Shown here: positions 26,800-33,904 of the stretch, piece after piece
How the letters are laid out: the number at the start of each line of letters is the position of its first letter
How positions within the stretch are numbered: the stretch's first letter is position 1
NCBI RefSeq assembly: GCF_003751225.1
Contig: NZ_RJKE01000001.1
Location: 7,006,001 to 7,070,000 of the forward strand
Source of the DNA: Actinocorallia herbida
GTDB lineage: Bacteria > Actinomycetota > Actinomycetes > Streptosporangiales > Streptosporangiaceae
Direction: 5' to 3'
Length of the DNA: 64,000 bases
The notes under the pieces: generated by a model
What the model was told of the DNA's origin: nothing
Database searches by the model: none
What the model saw: the letters and a program-made list of their open reading frames with translations, nothing else
Made by a program: the position numbers and the translations under genes

Positions 26800-28050
26800 T
26801 CACCGTCTGTTCATCAAGGACTTCGTGGAGTGGTCTAGACCAACGGTTTCCGGACCGGTTTCCGCGGGGTCCGCCGGGCGCGCCGCCAGATGTGCCCGGC
26901 GGCACACGACGAGGACCGCGGCGAGGCCGACCGTGACGGGAGGGAGCAGGAAGGCCGTCGAGGGGCCGAACCGGTCGGCGAGCTGTCCGCCGAGGGCCGC
27001 GCCCGCCGCGATGCCGAGGCCCGTCCCGCCCGTCAGCCAGGTGTAGCCCTCGGTCTTGACGTGCGCGGGCACCAGGCCGTCCAGGACGGTGTAGCCGGTG
27101 ATGAGCGCGGGCGCGACGACGAGCCCGGCCGCGCCCGCCGCCGCGTACAGCGGACCGGTGGACGAGGCGAGCGGAGGCAGCAGCAGGGCGACCGCGAGCG
27201 CCCCCAGCAGGACCGCCAGACGGCCCGGGGCGGCGCCCCGCAGGCGCAGCGCCCCGAAGGCGAGGCCGCCCAGGAGGCTGCCCGCGGAGAACGTCCCGTA
27301 GATGGTGCCCGCAGCGCCCGGATCGCCGATCTGCGCCGTGTAGGAGGTGATCGCCACCTGGAGGGCCCCGAACACCGTGCCGACGCCCAGCAGCGCCCCA
27401 GCGACGACCGCGACGCCGCGCATCGCGAGCACCCGGGTCCCGCCCGACACCGCCGCGGGCGCCGGTTCCGGCCTGCCGGTCCGGACCGCGGCGAACACCA
27501 GCGTCCCGGCGATGACGAGCACGAGGGCCCCGGTCAGCGCCCACACCGGGCTGGCCGCGGTCGCGACCGCGAGCAGCACGACCGGCGCCAGGGTGAACAT
27601 CAGGTCGTCGGTGACCGCCTCGACCGCGAACGCCGTGCTCGTCCTGCCGCGCGGCAGCAGATGCGCCCAGCGCGCCCGGACCATCGACCCCACCTGCGGC
27701 ATCGTCGCCCCGGCGAGGCCGGAGAGCGGCACGAGCCAGACCGGTGGCAGGCCCGTCTGCGCGGCGACCAGCAGCGCGCCGAGCGCGACCGCGTGCACCA
27801 GCACCTGCGGCACCAGCACCGCCCGCTGCCCGTACCGGTCGGCCAGCCGTCCGGTCTGCGGCGCCGCGACCGCCTGCGCGACGGCCGCGAAGGCCGCCGC
27901 GAGCCCGCCCCACCCGTAGGACCCGGTCGCCCATTCGACCAGCAGCAGGGTCCCGATCTGCAACATCGCCTGCGGCAGCCGGGCACAGATCCCCGGCAGC
28001 AGGAACCGCCACGCTCCAGCCGTTCCCAGAACCGCAACATACGCCCGCAA
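26800..28050 (-). CDS. MFS transporter
   Basis: The 416-residue protein has twelve predicted helices. Gly-Arg-Leu-Ala-Asp-Arg-Tyr-Gly-Gln-Arg between helices 2 and 3 is the MFS loop motif, and Gly-Gly-Gln-Leu-Ala-Asp-Arg-Phe-Gly echoes it in the second half. It looks like a drug/metabolite exporter. TTG at 28050 with GGAGGGG upstream is the best start; no ATG fits. It follows the PEP-synthase-like gene by 122 bases on the same strand without an obvious terminator, so it could export a product of that locus; this is inference. Confidence 0.88.
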   Translation of the reverse strand: MRAYVAVLGTAGAWRFLLPGICARLPQAMLQIGTLLLVEWATGSYGWGGLAAAFAAVAQAVAAPQTGRLADRYGQRAVLVPQVLVHAVALGALLVAAQTGLPPVWLVPLSGLAGATMPQVGSMVRARWAHLLPRGRTSTAFAVEAVTDDLMFTLAPVVLLAVATAASPVWALTGALVLVIAGTLVFAAVRTGRPEPAPAAVSGGTRVLAMRGVAVVAGALLGVGTVFGALQVAITSYTAQIGDPGAAGTIYGTFSAGSLLGGLAFGALRLRGAAPGRLAVLLGALAVALLLPPLASSTGPLYAAAGAAGLVVAPALITGYTVLDGLVPAHVKTEGYTWLTGGTGLGIAAGAALGGQLADRFGPSTAFLLPPVTVGLAAVLVVCRRAHLAARPADPAETGPETVGLDHSTKSLMNRR

Positions 28051-28172: not shown

Positions 28173-30767
28173 CTACTTCAGGATGCGGATGAGGCCCGTG
28201 GTGCCGTCGACGGAGAGGGTCATCCCGTCCTTGATCCGGGTGGTGAGCTCGGGGACGCGGACTATCGCGGGGATGCCGAGTTCTCGGGCCACGGTGGCGG
28301 CGTGGGTGAGCGGGCCGCCGCGTTCGATGAGGAGCGCGGCGGCGGTGGGCAGCGCGGCGACCCAGCGCGGGTCGGTCCGGCGGGCGACGATGACGCCGCC
28401 TTCGGCGTCGGCGGGGGCGTCCAGGAGCCGGGCCACCCCGGTGACGATGCCGGGGGCGCACGGGATGCCGCGGAGGACGTCGCCGGAGGGGTCGCCGGGG
28501 TCGGGGCTGCGCAGGCTCCAGTAGACGCTGCCGCGGGTGGTGAAGCGGGGCGGCGGGGCGGGCATGAGGCGCTGCCGGGACTGCTGGTCGCGGCGCAGCT
28601 CGGCCAGGGGCCGCAGCTCGCGGTGATCGAGGGTGCCCGCGTAGGCGGCCCGGATCTCCTCCAGCTTGAGGAAGAACACCTCGCGGCGGTCGCCGAGCGC
28701 GCCGACCGACTCCAGGTCGCGGCCGATCGCCTGGAACATGCGCCGGGCCACGCCGAACACGCGGACGCGGGCGTGCCTGACCCGCTCGCGTTCGCGCAGC
28801 GCCTCGCGGACCTTGGTGCGGACGAGGTGGTAGACGAACCGCTTGGGGCCGCTCAGATGGGCGGCGAGGTAGGCGTCCGCCTCCGCTCGGCGGCTCGCGG
28901 AGGCGACGGCCTCCTCGGCGGCTCCCGCGACGCCCTGGAGCGCTTCCTGGAGCAGCGCCATGAGCCGCGCGGGGTCCGCGTGCAGATCGGGCTCCTCGAG
29001 GTTCAGCGAGCCGCTCGCGACGTGCCCGAACTCGGCGAGGTAGTCGCTGAGGGCGGCGCGCAGCCATGCCGCGTCGTCGCCGCGCGCGTCGGTGAGCCAC
29101 CCGGCCAGGTCGGCGGCGGGGCGTGCGGCGATCTCGACGGCCAGGCGCTCGCGCCCCGCGAGGTCCGCGGCGATCGCGGCGAGCCGCGCGGCGGGCGGGG
29201 GCGCCTCCGCGCCGGGCTGGACCGCCTCCCACACGACCCAGGGCGGCGCGTCGGGCAACCAGCGCTGGTTGAGGCTCTGGAGCACGCCGAAGGAGAGCAT
29301 CAGGACGTTGTCGAGGACCGCGGTCGGGCCCCATCGGGTGAGCAGCCGGTCCTCGAGCCGGTACAGCTCCCGGTTGACCTCGTGCCCCGGCAGGTCCGCG
29401 TAGTCGACCTCCTCGAACGCCGCGGACGCCTCCGCGAAGTCGTCGACGAACGCGGCGACCGAGCGCCGCGCCCCCATGAACATCCGGACGAACCGGGCGG
29501 CGACCCGGAACCGGACCAGCCGCTGCCGTCCCGCGGAGCCGATCGGGTGCTGGGCCTCGGCCAGCTCGTCGGAGGTCTCCCGCACCCCCAGCGCCCGCTC
29601 CAGGACCCGCCGGTGCAGCTTGTACCCCGGGAGCAGCCGGATGACCTTGTACCAGTTGAGGACGTTGTAGTAGACCCGCCCGTCGAAGTAGCCCAGCATG
29701 TCGCCGAACCACTCGTCCATCCGGGCGATGTCGCTCTCCGGGACGCCCAGCGCGCGTACGTGGTCCCGGTACACCTTCTGGTAGGCGAGGCGCGCGAAGC
29801 TGAACGTCAGGGGCGCGGTGACCTCGCCGAAGTCCTCGTCGATGTCGGCGCTGTCCCACACCCGCAGCTCGCCCTCGGCCTCCCGGAGCGTGGTGATCGG
29901 CCGGGCCTGCAGGACATGGAAGGCGCCGTCGTGCAACGCCCACTCGATGTCCTGCGGGCAGCCGAACAGCCGCTCCACCCGGGCGCCGAGATCGCCGAGG
30001 TCGCCCACCTGCTCGTTGCTGAGCGCGAACCGCACGCGGTGGTGGCTCGAGACCCGGCTGAGCACGGGACCGCCCGGGCCCGGGTCGAGCCGCTCGGCCT
30101 TCTCCCCGATGACGGCGTCGCCGACGACCCCGCTCGTGCGGTCGAGGGTGAGGGTGTCGGGGTCGACCGCCCCGGACGAGAGCGTCTCGCCCAGCCCATA
30201 GACACAGCTGATGAGCGCCTGGTCGCGGTCCCCGGTGACGGGATGGGCCGTGAACATCACCCCGGACACCTCGGCCGGGACGATCCGCTGCACGATGACG
30301 GCGAGGTCGATCCGGTCGGTCGGCAGCCCGTGCAGCCACCGGTAGACCAGGGACCGGGCGGAGTAGGCCGACGCCCAGCATTCCCTGACGTGCTCGGCGA
30401 CGGCGTCGAACCCGCTCAGCCCGAGGAACGAGGAGTACTGCCCGGCGAACGACACATTGGGCAGGTCCTCGTCTGCGCCGGAGGACCGGACCGCGACGGT
30501 GCCCTGCCCGACCGCGTCGTAGGCCCGCCAGATCGCCGACAGGGCCGCGCCGTCCAGCGGGGTCACCGAGAACGCCTTGGCGATCCGCTCCGCGGTGTCG
30601 TAGGCGGTGTCGGGATTGAGCCCGGTGAGCAGGGCGGCGATCTCGGCGTCGAGCCCGGACCGCAGCCGGAAGTCGCGCAGCACGTCGAGGCCGAGGACCG
30701 ACCACTCGGGCACGCTGAAGCCCGCGTCGGCGAGCCGGCGCAGGTGTGCGGCCTTACCGCCGATCAC
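28173..30767 (-). CDS. PEP-synthase-like phosphotransferase (PEP/pyruvate-binding, Rph-like architecture)
   Basis: A predicted 864-residue enzyme with three parts. The N-terminal ATP-grasp domain (1-320) has Gly-Gly-Lys-Ala-Ala-His-Leu, Ala-Val-Arg-Ser-Ser-Gly-Ala-Asp-Glu-Asp, Ser-Phe-Ala-Gly-Gln-Tyr and Asp-Ile-Glu-Trp-Ala. A long helical middle (320-760) follows. The C-terminal swivelling phosphohistidine domain has Arg-Gly-Gly-Pro-Leu-Thr-His-Ala-Ala-Thr-Val-Ala-Arg-Glu-Leu-Gly. The PEP-synthase C-terminal PEP-binding barrel is absent, so the plan is that of rifampin phosphotransferase and relatives. It should move phosphate from ATP via His to a substrate held by the middle domain; the substrate is unknown. 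The GTG start overlaps the AfsA-fusion stop (GTGA). Confidence 0.85.
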   Translation of the reverse strand: MIGGKAAHLRRLADAGFSVPEWSVLGLDVLRDFRLRSGLDAEIAALLTGLNPDTAYDTAERIAKAFSVTPLDGAALSAIWRAYDAVGQGTVAVRSSGADEDLPNVSFAGQYSSFLGLSGFDAVAEHVRECWASAYSARSLVYRWLHGLPTDRIDLAVIVQRIVPAEVSGVMFTAHPVTGDRDQALISCVYGLGETLSSGAVDPDTLTLDRTSGVVGDAVIGEKAERLDPGPGGPVLSRVSSHHRVRFALSNEQVGDLGDLGARVERLFGCPQDIEWALHDGAFHVLQARPITTLREAEGELRVWDSADIDEDFGEVTAPLTFSFARLAYQKVYRDHVRALGVPESDIARMDEWFGDMLGYFDGRVYYNVLNWYKVIRLLPGYKLHRRVLERALGVRETSDELAEAQHPIGSAGRQRLVRFRVAARFVRMFMGARRSVAAFVDDFAEASAAFEEVDYADLPGHEVNRELYRLEDRLLTRWGPTAVLDNVLMLSFGVLQSLNQRWLPDAPPWVVWEAVQPGAEAPPPAARLAAIAADLAGRERLAVEIAARPAADLAGWLTDARGDDAAWLRAALSDYLAEFGHVASGSLNLEEPDLHADPARLMALLQEALQGVAGAAEEAVASASRRAEADAYLAAHLSGPKRFVYHLVRTKVREALRERERVRHARVRVFGVARRMFQAIGRDLESVGALGDRREVFFLKLEEIRAAYAGTLDHRELRPLAELRRDQQSRQRLMPAPPPRFTTRGSVYWSLRSPDPGDPSGDVLRGIPCAPGIVTGVARLLDAPADAEGGVIVARRTDPRWVAALPTAAALLIERGGPLTHAATVARELGIPAIVRVPELTTRIKDGMTLSVDGTTGLIRILK

Positions 30768-32608
30768 GCGCGCACCACCTCGGCGGTGACCGCGCAGACC
30801 TCGATGCCGTCCTGGGCGAAGGAAACCGCGACCGCGACCTTGCCGCCGCGGTCGGCGACGATGCGCGCGGTGCAGCTGAGCGCGGTGTCGAGCTCGCCGA
30901 CGCCGGGGTGGCCGCTGTCGAGCACGATGACGGCGAGCTGGCCCGCGGGCAGCGCGAGATGCCGGGAGGTCGCCCACAGCGCGGCCTGGCGCGCCGCCTC
31001 CATGAGCGCGACGCCGGGGACATGGTCCTGCGGCTGGTCGAAGAGCCCGGGGTTGGCCGGGTCGACGACGACGCGGGCGGTCATCGTCCCGGGCCGCCAG
31101 AGCGGGTCGGCGAGCACCACGTTGTCGTCGTGGCTGCGGCCGACGGCGCGGGCCGAGGGGAACGTCCCGCTCATGTCGGGCACACCGATCTCGGCGCCGA
31201 GCCCGTGCCTGGCCCGGCCCTCGAGGCGTTCCGCCTGCCACGCGGACTCGCTCATCCAGGAGAACGACAGGGTCGCGGTCGCCAGCGGGACGCCGTCGGC
31301 GCCTTCGTCGAGGCCGAAGAACCCGAAAGCCAGGTCCAGGCCGTCGCGGCGGGCCTCGGTGACGGTCGCCTCGATGCGGACGCGCCGGTGCGCGCAGGCG
31401 CCGGGGACCAGCGCGGCCCGCAGCCCGCGCAGGGCGAACCGCGCGTCGTCGGGCGCGCCGTGGTGGGCGTGCGCGAGGACGTAGGCGCTCTGCCCGGCGA
31501 GTTCCAGGATCGGCGCGAGGTCGAGGCCGGAGCCGGAGCGCGGCACGTCGTTGAGGTAGCGGTGCGCGGTCGGCAGCTCGCCGGCGAGCAGCACCGCCCC
31601 GTCGGGCGCGGCGACCTGGTCGGTGAGCAGCACGCCCGCGGGCCCCGCCTTGTGGACGAGCCGGTAGGGCAGGGTCCGGTCGAAGCGCAGCGGGCGCCAC
31701 GGCTGGGCCTTCAGATGCTCCCACTGCGCGGTGGTCACGCCGGTCACCAGCGGCGCCTTGTCCGAGAGGCACGGGGTCGCCGCGGCGCCGCCGAGGACGA
31801 CTCCGTCCCAGGGGCCGGCGGGGGTGCCGAGTTCGGCGCGCTCGCGTGCGGCGGTGCGGGAGAGGTCGTCGGCGGGGGTGCGCCGGTACAGGTCGGCGAT
31901 GAGGGCGCGCGCCTCGGTCTCGCGGTCCCGCCCGGCGACGAGGTCGGCGTAGACGCGGCGGCGGTCGGGCCCGTCGAGGAGGATGCCGAACTCGCGGACG
32001 AGGTCGGCGGGCTCGTCGGCGGTGTGCGCGAAGGTGACGAGTCCGCTGACCGGCTCGCCCAGTCCGGCGAGGAGGTGGCGGAGCTGCCAGCGTTCGCGCC
32101 GGGAGGGGTCGGCGCTGCCTTTGCGCTGGCTGATCCGCAGCGTCGCCGGGATGGGCGCGCGCGGCAGCCTGGCGACGAGCAGGAGGCTCTCGCCCGCGGT
32201 GGCGAGGAGGTCGGTGAGGGCGCGGTGCTCGCGGGTGGCGACGTTCCACTGGTACCACCACAACGCGCGGGTGCTGTGCCGGTCGAGCCGCAGCGCCTCG
32301 GCGGCGACGACGACCGCGTCCTGCGCGAGCAGCCAGTCGAGTGCGGCCTCCAGTCGGCGTCCCGCGACGGCGTCGGGGGTGAGCAGCACCGTGGCGTGCA
32401 CGTCGAGGAGGGTCCACGGGTCGGGCGCGGTCGCCATCAGGTCGTCCCAGCCGTCGCGGAAGTAGCTGTCGACGGCGAACAGCGCGCGCTTGCCGGGGAG
32501 CGCGGACAGCGCGGCGGGGACGGGTTCGGCGTGCTCCCCGCCGATGGTCATCTCGGGTGCCTCGGCGGGTGCTTCGCTCGCCCCGGCCAGTGCGGTCGTC
32601 CCGGTCAT
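30764..32608 (-). CDS. NDP-kinase-like domain fused to AfsA-type double hotdog (gamma-butyrolactone synthase-like)
   Basis: A 614-residue protein. Residues about 70-215 resemble nucleoside diphosphate kinase: Thr-Val-Leu-Leu-Thr-Pro-Asp-Ala-Val (73-81) for the TFVLIKPDAV strand, but with Thr for the conserved Lys. Phe-Ala-His-Thr-Ala-Asp-Glu-Pro-Ala (193-201) then aligns with the catalytic-His NxxHxSDS segment, His195. Residues 310-614 are AfsA hotdogs: Val-His-Lys-Ala (317-320), Val-Leu-Leu-Thr-Asp, and in the second half Asp-Asp-Asn-Val-Val-Leu-Ala-Asp-Pro, Asp-His-Val-Pro-Gly-Val-Ala-Leu-Met-Glu-Ala-Ala-Arg-Gln (527-540). AfsA condenses a beta-ketoacyl thioester with glycerone phosphate. 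The AfsA part is secure; the NDK part is my alignment by eye. Confidence 0.8.
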   Translation of the reverse strand: MTGTTALAGASEAPAEAPEMTIGGEHAEPVPAALSALPGKRALFAVDSYFRDGWDDLMATAPDPWTLLDVHATVLLTPDAVAGRRLEAALDWLLAQDAVVVAAEALRLDRHSTRALWWYQWNVATREHRALTDLLATAGESLLLVARLPRAPIPATLRISQRKGSADPSRRERWQLRHLLAGLGEPVSGLVTFAHTADEPADLVREFGILLDGPDRRRVYADLVAGRDRETEARALIADLYRRTPADDLSRTAARERAELGTPAGPWDGVVLGGAAATPCLSDKAPLVTGVTTAQWEHLKAQPWRPLRFDRTLPYRLVHKAGPAGVLLTDQVAAPDGAVLLAGELPTAHRYLNDVPRSGSGLDLAPILELAGQSAYVLAHAHHGAPDDARFALRGLRAALVPGACAHRRVRIEATVTEARRDGLDLAFGFFGLDEGADGVPLATATLSFSWMSESAWQAERLEGRARHGLGAEIGVPDMSGTFPSARAVGRSHDDNVVLADPLWRPGTMTARVVVDPANPGLFDQPQDHVPGVALMEAARQAALWATSRHLALPAGQLAVIVLDSGHPGVGELDTALSCTARIVADRGGKVAVAVSFAQDGIEVCAVTAEVVRA

Positions 32609-33007: not shown

Positions 33008-33904
33008 TTACAGCTCGTTGCGGATGGCGGTCAGAACATCGGCGGTGGCCGAGACGGGCTCGGCCTCGACGCACAACTGGTCCATCACCGCGAGATAGCG
33101 TTCGACGTCGTCGCGCTTGTCCAGATACAGCGCGCTGGTGAGCTGCTCCAGATAGACGATGTCGGGCAGGTCGGGCTCGGCGAAGCGCAGGATGCTGAAC
33201 GGGCCCCCGGCCGCGGCGTGGCCGCCGCGCGCGAACGGCACGACCTGGACCGTCACCCCGGGCGCCTCCGACAGCTCGATGAGGCGCGCGAGCTGCTCGC
33301 GCATCACCGTGCGGCCGCCCAGCGGACGGCGCATCGCCGCCTCGTCGACCACGGTCCACACCTGGGGCGCGTCCTCGCCCGTGAGCAGGCCCTGGCGCTG
33401 CATCCGCATCTCCACCCGGCGCTCGATCTCCTCGGCGGGCGCGGCGCTGTGGCCGAGGAGGGTGACCGCGCGGGCGTAGGCCTCGGTCTGGAGCAGGCCG
33501 GGGACGAACTGCACCTCGTAGGAGCGGATGCGGCTCGCCGCCTCCTCCAGGCCGATGTAGTTCTCGAACCATTTGGGCAGCACGTCGTTGTAGCGGTGCC
33601 ACCAGCCGTTGCGGCTGGCCCGCCGGGCCAGGCTCAGCGCCTTGGCCCTTTCCTCCTCGTCCTGGACGCCGTAGAGCGTCAGCAGGTCGGCGACGTCGCG
33701 CTCCCGGAAGGACACGCGGCCGAGCTCCAGACGGCTGATCTTGGAGTCCGAGGCGCGGATCGCGTATCCGGCGTCATCGCGGGAGATGCCCTTGGCCTCG
33801 CGCAGCCTGCGCAGCTGCGCGCCCAGCAGGATGCGCAGCACGGTGGGCCCGCCGCCGGCCGATGCCGAGATGTCCAACACGGTGGCGGGTGCGGGTGGGA
33901 CCAT
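33008..33904 (-). CDS. XRE-family regulator with DUF5753 domain
   Basis: A 298-residue protein. The N-terminal helix-turn-helix (about 28-85) has Leu-Arg-Arg-Leu-Arg-Glu-Ala-Lys-Gly-Ile-Ser and Ser-Lys-Ile-Ser-Arg-Leu-Glu-Leu-Gly-Arg. The DUF5753 domain starts Trp-Phe-Glu-Asn-Tyr-Ile-Gly-Leu-Glu-Glu-Ala-Ala and includes Val-Pro-Gly-Leu-Leu-Gln-Thr-Glu-Ala-Tyr-Ala. These regulators act with small DUF397 proteins and RsbW-like ATPases in streptomycete development and antibiotic control. ATG at 33904 has AGGGAG seven bases upstream. The DUF397 gene lies 206 bases upstream on the same strand. Confidence 0.92.
   Translation of the reverse strand: MVPPAPATVLDISASAGGGPTVLRILLGAQLRRLREAKGISRDDAGYAIRASDSKISRLELGRVSFRERDVADLLTLYGVQDEEERAKALSLARRASRNGWWHRYNDVLPKWFENYIGLEEAASRIRSYEVQFVPGLLQTEAYARAVTLLGHSAAPAEEIERRVEMRMQRQGLLTGEDAPQVWTVVDEAAMRRPLGGRTVMREQLARLIELSEAPGVTVQVVPFARGGHAAAGGPFSILRFAEPDLPDIVYLEQLTSALYLDKRDDVERYLAVMDQLCVEAEPVSATADVLTAIRNEL

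Follow-up and report, generated by a model that had tools for sequence, protein, structure and literature searches.

Introduction

AfsA enzymes condense beta-ketoacyl thioesters with dihydroxyacetone phosphate (PMC7756379) and yield phosphorylated butenolides, from which the phosphate presumably has to be removed (PMC7756379; PMC5735094). AfsA-like domains can also sit inside larger proteins: the gladiostatin polyketide synthase carries a C-terminal AfsA-like PBS domain with a role outside gamma-butyrolactone (GBL) signalling (PMC7756379). A separate group of enzymes, the rifampin phosphotransferases (RPH), moves the beta-phosphate of ATP via a phosphohistidine to a small molecule (PMC4844700). 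Here we describe a locus of Actinocorallia herbida, within 64,000 nucleotides of contig NZ_RJKE01000001.1 (positions 7,006,001 to 7,070,000, hereafter the window), where a single gene encodes an AfsA-like protein fused to a domain resembling nucleoside diphosphate kinase (NDPK) and is directly followed by the gene of an RPH-type dikinase.

The fusion and the coupled dikinase are confirmed, and relatives of all three parts occur together in other actinobacteria. On balance, we consider it probable that an AfsA-type enzyme, an NDPK-like protein and an RPH-type dikinase make up a conserved actinobacterial biosynthetic module. Such a three-part module suggests a route of biosynthesis that uses phosphate and has not been described before.

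Results

An NDPK fold at the N-terminus of an AfsA protein

A sequence-only reading of this DNA had likened the N-terminus of the fusion protein to NDPK, and both structure prediction and homology agree with that likeness. The sequence of residues 73-81 is TVLLTPDAV, and His195, which aligned with His118 of NDPK, belongs to HTADEPADLVRE, the segment that had been matched to the catalytic HxSDSxExAxRE. An AlphaFold model of residues 1-225 (pLDDT 88, pTM 0.84, residues 1-18 low) was compared with the PDB using Foldseek; the best 50 of 221 matches (E<=0.001) were all NDPK entries, with a probability of 1.00 and a TM of up to 0.83 by target length, so that the predicted fold is related to that of NDPK.

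Because direct searches with the window domain gave nothing useful, we relied on its relatives to show the homology. The Pfam NDK profile gave no match on the window fusion protein up to E 10, and phmmer with residues 1-213 against PDB sequences returned a single weak match (E 0.24) to an unrelated protein. Among the stand-alone homologues scanned, five scored above the Pfam NDK (PF00334) cut-off of 27 bits (30.7, 39.4, 45.3, 47.0 and 49.4 bits). Collectively, the model and these relatives indicate that the N-terminal domain has a predicted NDPK fold and, by sequence, is a member of an NDPK-like family.

Confirmed members of this family are present in 16 of 297 genomes of the window's taxonomic family, and three of the 16, all Actinocorallia, carry AfsA fusions. 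An initial search had matched 18 of the 297; G141 and G231 were dropped since the hidden Markov model (HMM) of the family did not confirm them, and the weak matches of G141, G231 and G034:C2 (loci L038, L040 and L041) were accordingly rejected as family members. At the level of the class, the family profile (A1) exceeded 100 bits in 11 of 394 genomes, two of which (G005 and G008) lie outside the locus comparison, and at E<=1e-4 it matched 361 of the 394 among the matches listed, mostly with a size and score such as one would expect for a housekeeping Ndk.

The three parts recur in single clusters of other families

Next, we compared eight NDPK-anchored loci from families other than that of the window (L123-L130). 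Five of them (L124, L126, L127, L129 and L130, of genomes G391, G326, G397, G299 and G444), drawn from two other families and three other genera, have one cluster with a separate gene for each of the three proteins, dikinase, NDPK-like and AfsA-like, which fits the earlier proposal of a functional tie between AfsA and the phosphate-handling parts. The NDPK-like gene is found directly upstream of the AfsA-like gene in all five, with spacings of +11, -4, -4, +6 and -4 nt (the NDPK-like gene of L130 being read directly from the sequence rather than from gene calls), and the dikinase gene shares the cluster with this pair at a distance of several genes. Direct BLAST of the fusion protein gave 99-142 bits against the stand-alone NDPK-like proteins of four of the five clusters (L130 was outside the set) and 73-100 bits against the AfsA-like proteins of all five.

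A single run of genes in each of the five clusters includes a same-clade dikinase, a nucleotidyltransferase-like domain, a thioester-reductase-like NAD-binding gene, the NDPK-like and AfsA-like genes and a UbiA-like membrane protein, this last label resting on Pfam matches below the cut-off (14.5 and 19.4 versus 34.2). The nucleotidyltransferase-like domain is joined to an AMP-ligase in one gene in L127, as well as in L126, L129 and L130 according to BLAST and HMM, and is a separate gene in L124. Furthermore, gene calling gave a small carrier protein for L126, L127 and L130, and L124 and L127 also have a nitroreductase.

Of the 29 NDPK-bearing loci searched, 13 (L026, L027, L028, L030, L031, L032, L037, L074, L124, L126, L127, L129 and L130) also hold a Pol-beta-type nucleotidyltransferase-like protein or domain in the stretch around the NDPK-like gene, a count obtained with an HMM for which nine of the 13 positive loci supplied seed sequences. 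In L121, the nucleotidyltransferase accompanies a dikinase and no NDPK. The HMM search found no such protein in the three Actinocorallia loci, and the nucleotidyltransferase was therefore kept out of the proposed module.

Active site of the NDPK-like domain

We aligned 26 rows of the NDPK-like family (the incomplete L035 was left out) with eight housekeeping Ndks, one of them the host's own. The residue labels below are those that we take to be standard NDPK numbering, mapped onto the host's Ndk. His118 and Arg105 are retained in all 26 rows and Glu129 in 25 (one Asp), with lower counts for Asn115 (16/26), Lys12 (15/26), Thr94 (5/26) and Arg88 (1/26), although this last column may be misaligned, several rows having an Arg one place on. 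The family thus shares with NDPK (PF00334) its fold and the equivalents of His118, Arg105 and Glu129, and differs from it in N- and C-terminal extensions, in varied and often biosynthetic-looking gene neighbourhoods and, for the fused clade, in the loss of Lys12 and Asn115.

The window domain retains three of the seven catalytic residues, Arg105, His118 and Glu129, and Thr77 takes the position of the conserved Lys, a replacement that the sequence-only reading had rightly seen. All five stand-alone NDPK-like proteins encoded next to an AfsA-like gene keep Lys12, Asn115, Arg105, His118 and Glu129, and three of the five also keep Thr94. Because of these kept and lost residues, the stand-alone partners could be phosphotransferases, and such an activity is less certain for the fused domain.

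Elsewhere in the family, two divergent NDPK-like genes occur together in L026 (8453-10450), L027 (9100-11546), L028 (9108-10840) and L034 (1133-10478). Pro replaces the Lys in one copy of L026, in one copy of L027 and in the only copy found of L037, which suggests that such pairs may be catalytic and non-catalytic couples. On a Streptomyces anulatus plasmid (NZ_CP108693.1, L076 11875-14226), an NDPK-like domain is part of a 2.35-kb gene whose product is annotated as an amidohydrolase family protein; this looks like another type of NDPK-like fusion. A tblastn match to this NDPK-like family outside Actinobacteria was found on an Enterobacter chuandaensis plasmid (NZ_CP097174.1, 84947-85576), where it is annotated as a hypothetical protein.

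The AfsA part

The 614-residue product was said to end in two AfsA repeats, and we found the same: Pfam AfsA matches the fusion in two stretches (E 1.7e-24), both above the cut-off within one gene, and this part modelled alone is predicted to be a double hotdog (pLDDT 90), whose PDB matches are mostly hotdog thioesterases, LnmK and dehydratase domains. In common with the AfsA/ScbA/BarX synthases (PF03756, NF041195) it has two hotdog repeats and 18 of the 22 residues that are invariant across 35 non-fused AfsA rows, among them H319, H349, E369, Q373, H380, R461, R491, D528, H529, E537, Q541, E572 and Q599.

It differs from these synthases in being fused to an NDPK-like domain, in its score against NCBIfam ScbA/BarX (123.5, below the cut-off of 200) and at the positions of E325, R372, H525 and F567. 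The H525 position is Gln in the window and in L002 and Arg in L003, the F567 position is His in the window and L002, and the D524 position is Glu in L003. The AfsA-like partners of L124 and L127, the two that were scanned, scored 211.9 and 214.4, above the ScbA/BarX cut-off.

The earlier statement that no AfsA protein with such a domain has been described stands in so far as no fusion with NDPK was found: in the open-licence literature, we recognised no paper joining AfsA with NDPK, PEP synthase or PPDK, and no relevant paper on NDPK with biosynthetic gene clusters or butyrolactones. AfsA within larger proteins is known, however, from the gladiostatin polyketide synthase, where the partner is a polyketide synthase module and not an NDPK-like domain (PMC7756379).

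The dikinase

Pfam places PPDK_N at residues 2-299 and PEP-utilizers at residues 789-858 of the dikinase, which agrees with the rifampin-phosphotransferase layout proposed before. By sequence, the window dikinase appears to be of the RPH type, with which it shares the N-terminal ATP-grasp, the acceptor domain, the C-terminal phosphohistidine domain and the RE..R/K motif with its His (PMC4844700). His822 and R660-E661-x-x-R664 are retained in all eight dikinase rows and match Arg666/Glu667/Lys670 and His825 of RPH by motif and spacing only (PMC4844700). It differs from RPH in its linkage to AfsA and NDPK-like genes and in its score against NCBIfam RIF_Ptrans_rph, far below that equivalog cut-off (313.6 versus 999). 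Together with RPH, we regard the two-component small-molecule dikinase HpeHI as the nearest dikinase system (PMC12167813).

The A. populi protein ends at ~765 aa, without the phosphohistidine domain. No trace of this domain was seen by eye in three forward frames up to 700 bp downstream, nor did an HMM run against all six frames of the 17.8-kb locus detect a second dikinase piece at E<=1e-5.

Constraint and origin of the fusion

We estimated the ratio of nonsynonymous to synonymous substitutions (dN/dS) by Nei-Gojobori count for the pairs window-L002, window-L003 and L002-L003, given in this order throughout. The NDPK-like domain, at ~0.18, 0.32 and 0.25, is well constrained and lies below every other measured part in each pair, save the short N-terminus (28-31 codons; 0.16, 0.12 and 0.12, with dS ~1.6 in two pairs). 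The linker gave 0.56, 0.61 and 0.65, AfsA repeat 1 0.50, 0.85 and 0.54, and AfsA repeat 2 0.25, 0.41 and 0.32. For the dikinase, values were 0.26, 0.38 and 0.37 in the ATP-grasp part, 0.45, 0.56 and 0.60 in the middle part and 0.63 in the phosphohistidine domain (window-L002, the sole measurable pair).

The linker tracks by eye the C-terminal extension of the stand-alone proteins of L124, L126 and L127 to its end, with similar features (LY..TP..., PW..VVLG... and a W near the end). The Actinocorallia gene looks like an NDPK-like and an AfsA-like pair fused end to end, and the simplest reading is that a stop was lost between neighbours that abutted or overlapped. The NDPK-like tree joins the fused clade to the AfsA-neighbour clade plus three other rows at 91/86, below the usual mark; a clade of the fused and AfsA-neighbour proteins by themselves was not recovered and was not rejected (p-AU 0.125).

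Gene order in Actinocorallia

The host genome of the window is a single contig of 9.8 Mb, 99.33% complete. We compared three Actinocorallia genomes (G000, G016 and G075), with the loci window, L002 and L003 (A. populi). The fusion gene is present and open in all three, and the nearest named relatives found, Actinocorallia sp. API 0066 and A. populi, have fusion proteins with 78% and 62% identity to that of the window. A DUF397 gene and an HTH_31/DUF5753 gene lie upstream of the fusion, and a pyruvate kinase gene lies downstream of the locus (Table 1). The order HTH/DUF5753, fusion, dikinase, MFS, pyruvate kinase is the same in both relatives, where the fusion and dikinase genes are again adjacent, except that A. 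populi has one additional gene between dikinase and MFS. In this region of A. populi (L003 9812-12905), which includes the shortened dikinase gene, the additional gene is on the opposite strand and alpha/beta-hydrolase-like by eye. The start of the dikinase gene inside the fusion stop codon and the MFS gene that follows, both noted from the sequence beforehand, were found again.

Table 1. Coordinates of the Actinocorallia herbida locus, numbered from the first letter of the window
Feature	Coordinates	Strand	Remarks
NDPK-like/AfsA fusion gene, 614 aa	30764..32608 incl. stop	(-)	TGA at 30764-30766
NDPK-like domain, residues 32-225	31934..32515	(-)	His195 codon 32024-32026; Arg177 and Glu206 retained; Thr77 at the Lys12 position
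Linker, residues 226-300	31709..31933	(-)	By eye, like a shortened C-terminal extension of stand-alone NDPK-like proteins
AfsA double-hotdog part, residues 301-614	30767..31708	(-)	E369, E537 and R540 retained; Gly at E325 and R372
GTGA, dikinase start overlapping fusion stop	30764..30767	(-)	Common to both genes; GTG start at 30767-30765, inside the fusion-gene TGA
PEP-synthase/RPH-type dikinase gene, 864 aa	28173..30767	(-)	R660-E661-x-x-R664 motif, His822
Phosphohistidine (PEP-utilizers) domain of dikinase, residues 789-858	28194..28403	(-)	Missing in A. populi
MFS transporter gene, start uncertain	26800..27966	(-)	Downstream in 3/3 Actinocorallia loci; MFS_1 E 2.1e-18
HTH_31/DUF5753 regulator gene	33008..33904	(-)	Upstream in 3/3 Actinocorallia loci; candidate operon member only

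Discussion

Beyond what was computed above (domain content, homology, linked genes, conserved motifs and selective constraint), we infer a small-molecule pathway from the chemistry of the AfsA (PMC7756379) and RPH (PMC4844700) families. Under this hypothesis, the AfsA part would join a beta-ketoacyl thioester to a phosphorylated C3 unit, dihydroxyacetone phosphate or one like it, and the dikinase would transfer the beta-phosphate of ATP via His822 to a compound of the pathway, at a hydroxyl or an enol. The NDPK-like domain would handle a phosphate on the substrate or product of the AfsA part to which it is attached, via His195 if it is active, and the product may then be exported. That the fused domain is an active phosphotransferase for the phosphorylated substrate or product of the AfsA unit, for instance converting a monophosphate to a diphosphate or relaying phosphate from the dikinase, seems to us unlikely. 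The NDPK-like His of A. populi might replace the missing phosphohistidine domain as phosphate carrier; in HpeHI, too, the parts of a dikinase are divided between chains (PMC12167813).

A number of observations weigh against a three-part module. Most NDPK-like genes have no AfsA gene beside them. Within the 15-20 kb examined, no AfsA-like sequence accompanies the 13 stand-alone NDPK-like loci of the window's family, and AfsA is likewise absent from three of the eight loci of other families (L123, L125 and L128, with neither AfsA nor dikinase within 20 kb) and from the five plasmid loci searched. In favour of the module, the dikinase profile A2 matched seven of the 394 class genomes at E<=1e-150, of which the six strong ones (>1200 bits) all have NDPK-like and AfsA-like genes alongside; this six-of-six count is biased, as four of the eight rows of the profile came from NDPK-anchored loci. 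With the window dikinase alone as query, five of the 297 family genomes matched at E<=1e-120, namely the three Actinocorallia, G191, which has an NDPK-like gene and no AfsA in ~66 kb, and G292, with neither NDPK-like nor AfsA in ~60 kb.

In G554, the weak one of the seven (dikinase 516 bits), an AfsA-like gene is present without an NDPK-like gene in 19 kb, and the link between AfsA and the dikinase may predate that with NDPK. At this locus (L141 7774-13112), the AfsA-like gene (Pfam 4.3e-19) adjoins the distant dikinase relative and a membrane protein that has no Pfam match itself and scores 103-177 bits against the UbiA-like proteins of the five clusters. To the points against a module must be added that the further genes of the larger clusters have no BLAST relative beside the Actinocorallia operon, the sole ligase-like match in the window being weak (41-43 bits) and ~28 kb away, and that fused and NDPK-neighbour copies come together only weakly in the AfsA tree, along with five other rows (77/88, long branches). 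Within the proteins themselves, none of the three fused ones has an equivalent of Lys12, Thr94, Asn115 or Arg88, the fast-evolving AfsA repeat 1 has lost E325 (replaced by Gly in L002 as well as in the window) and R372 (replaced by Gly in the window only), and the A. populi dikinase is truncated.

In a rival reading, the fused NDPK-like domain is a pseudo-enzyme that holds the oligomer together or positions the AfsA part without phosphate transfer. The four residues lost throughout the fused clade and the Pro in place of Lys in L026_8453, L037_8805 and L027_10296 are in line with this, but the three fused proteins do retain His118, Arg105 and Glu129, the domain is well constrained and the stand-alone AfsA neighbours keep five active-site residues, so that we regard a pseudo-enzyme as possible, if doubtful. 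A locus that is decaying in Actinocorallia, with no present function, would account for the shortened A. populi dikinase, the R372G change and the high dN/dS of the phosphohistidine domain and AfsA repeat 1 (up to ~0.85); a fusion that is open in every Actinocorallia genome examined, dN/dS of 0.18-0.38 in the NDPK-like and ATP-grasp domains and a gene order changed by a single additional gene make decay quite unlikely.

The sequence-only reading had proposed a signalling-molecule pathway, which our data do not bear out. An ordinary GBL quorum-signal locus, whose AfsA has an incidental extra domain, would fit the Pfam AfsA assignment and the phosphate removal that AfsA products are thought to need. 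A quorum-signal role is nevertheless not favoured because no ScbR/ArpA-type receptor passes the cut-off of 150 in any of the three Actinocorallia genomes (best 76, 78 and 66 bits in G000, G016 and G075). The AfsA part also falls short of the ScbA/BarX cut-off, the five neighbouring window genes scanned include no reductase or phosphatase family (one gene had no match at all), and in G391 the receptors above the cut-off sit on contigs other than that of the cluster. A quorum signal is thus less likely than another small molecule, and we hold an ordinary GBL locus to be improbable. It is more improbable by far that the dikinase is a gluconeogenic PEP synthase (PEPS) and a chance neighbour: it does pass NCBIfam PRK06241.2-2, named 'phosphoenolpyruvate synthase' (886.5 versus a cut-off of 883), but it is far from the PEP synthase model TIGR01418 (276.3 versus 739.75), carries its His domain at the C-terminus like RPH, whereas that of PEPS is central (PMC4844700), and is linked to AfsA and NDPK-like genes. 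PEPS is a frequent wrong annotation for relatives of RPH (PMC4844700).

Taken together, our results favour the biosynthetic module of AfsA-type enzyme, NDPK-like protein and RPH-type dikinase, and show that the annotation 'nucleoside-diphosphate kinase' can be given to members of a separate family whose active site has changed. PMC7756379 names as an open question how the phosphate-bearing intermediates of AfsA are elaborated outside GBLs, and a module of AfsA with two phosphotransferases, once on the same chain, gives this butenolide-phosphate question defined genes in several actinobacterial families. If the NDPK-like domain is active, an enzyme of the NDP-kinase fold would be working on an intermediate of a natural product in place of a nucleotide, and the metabolites that depend on AfsA would gain a new class.

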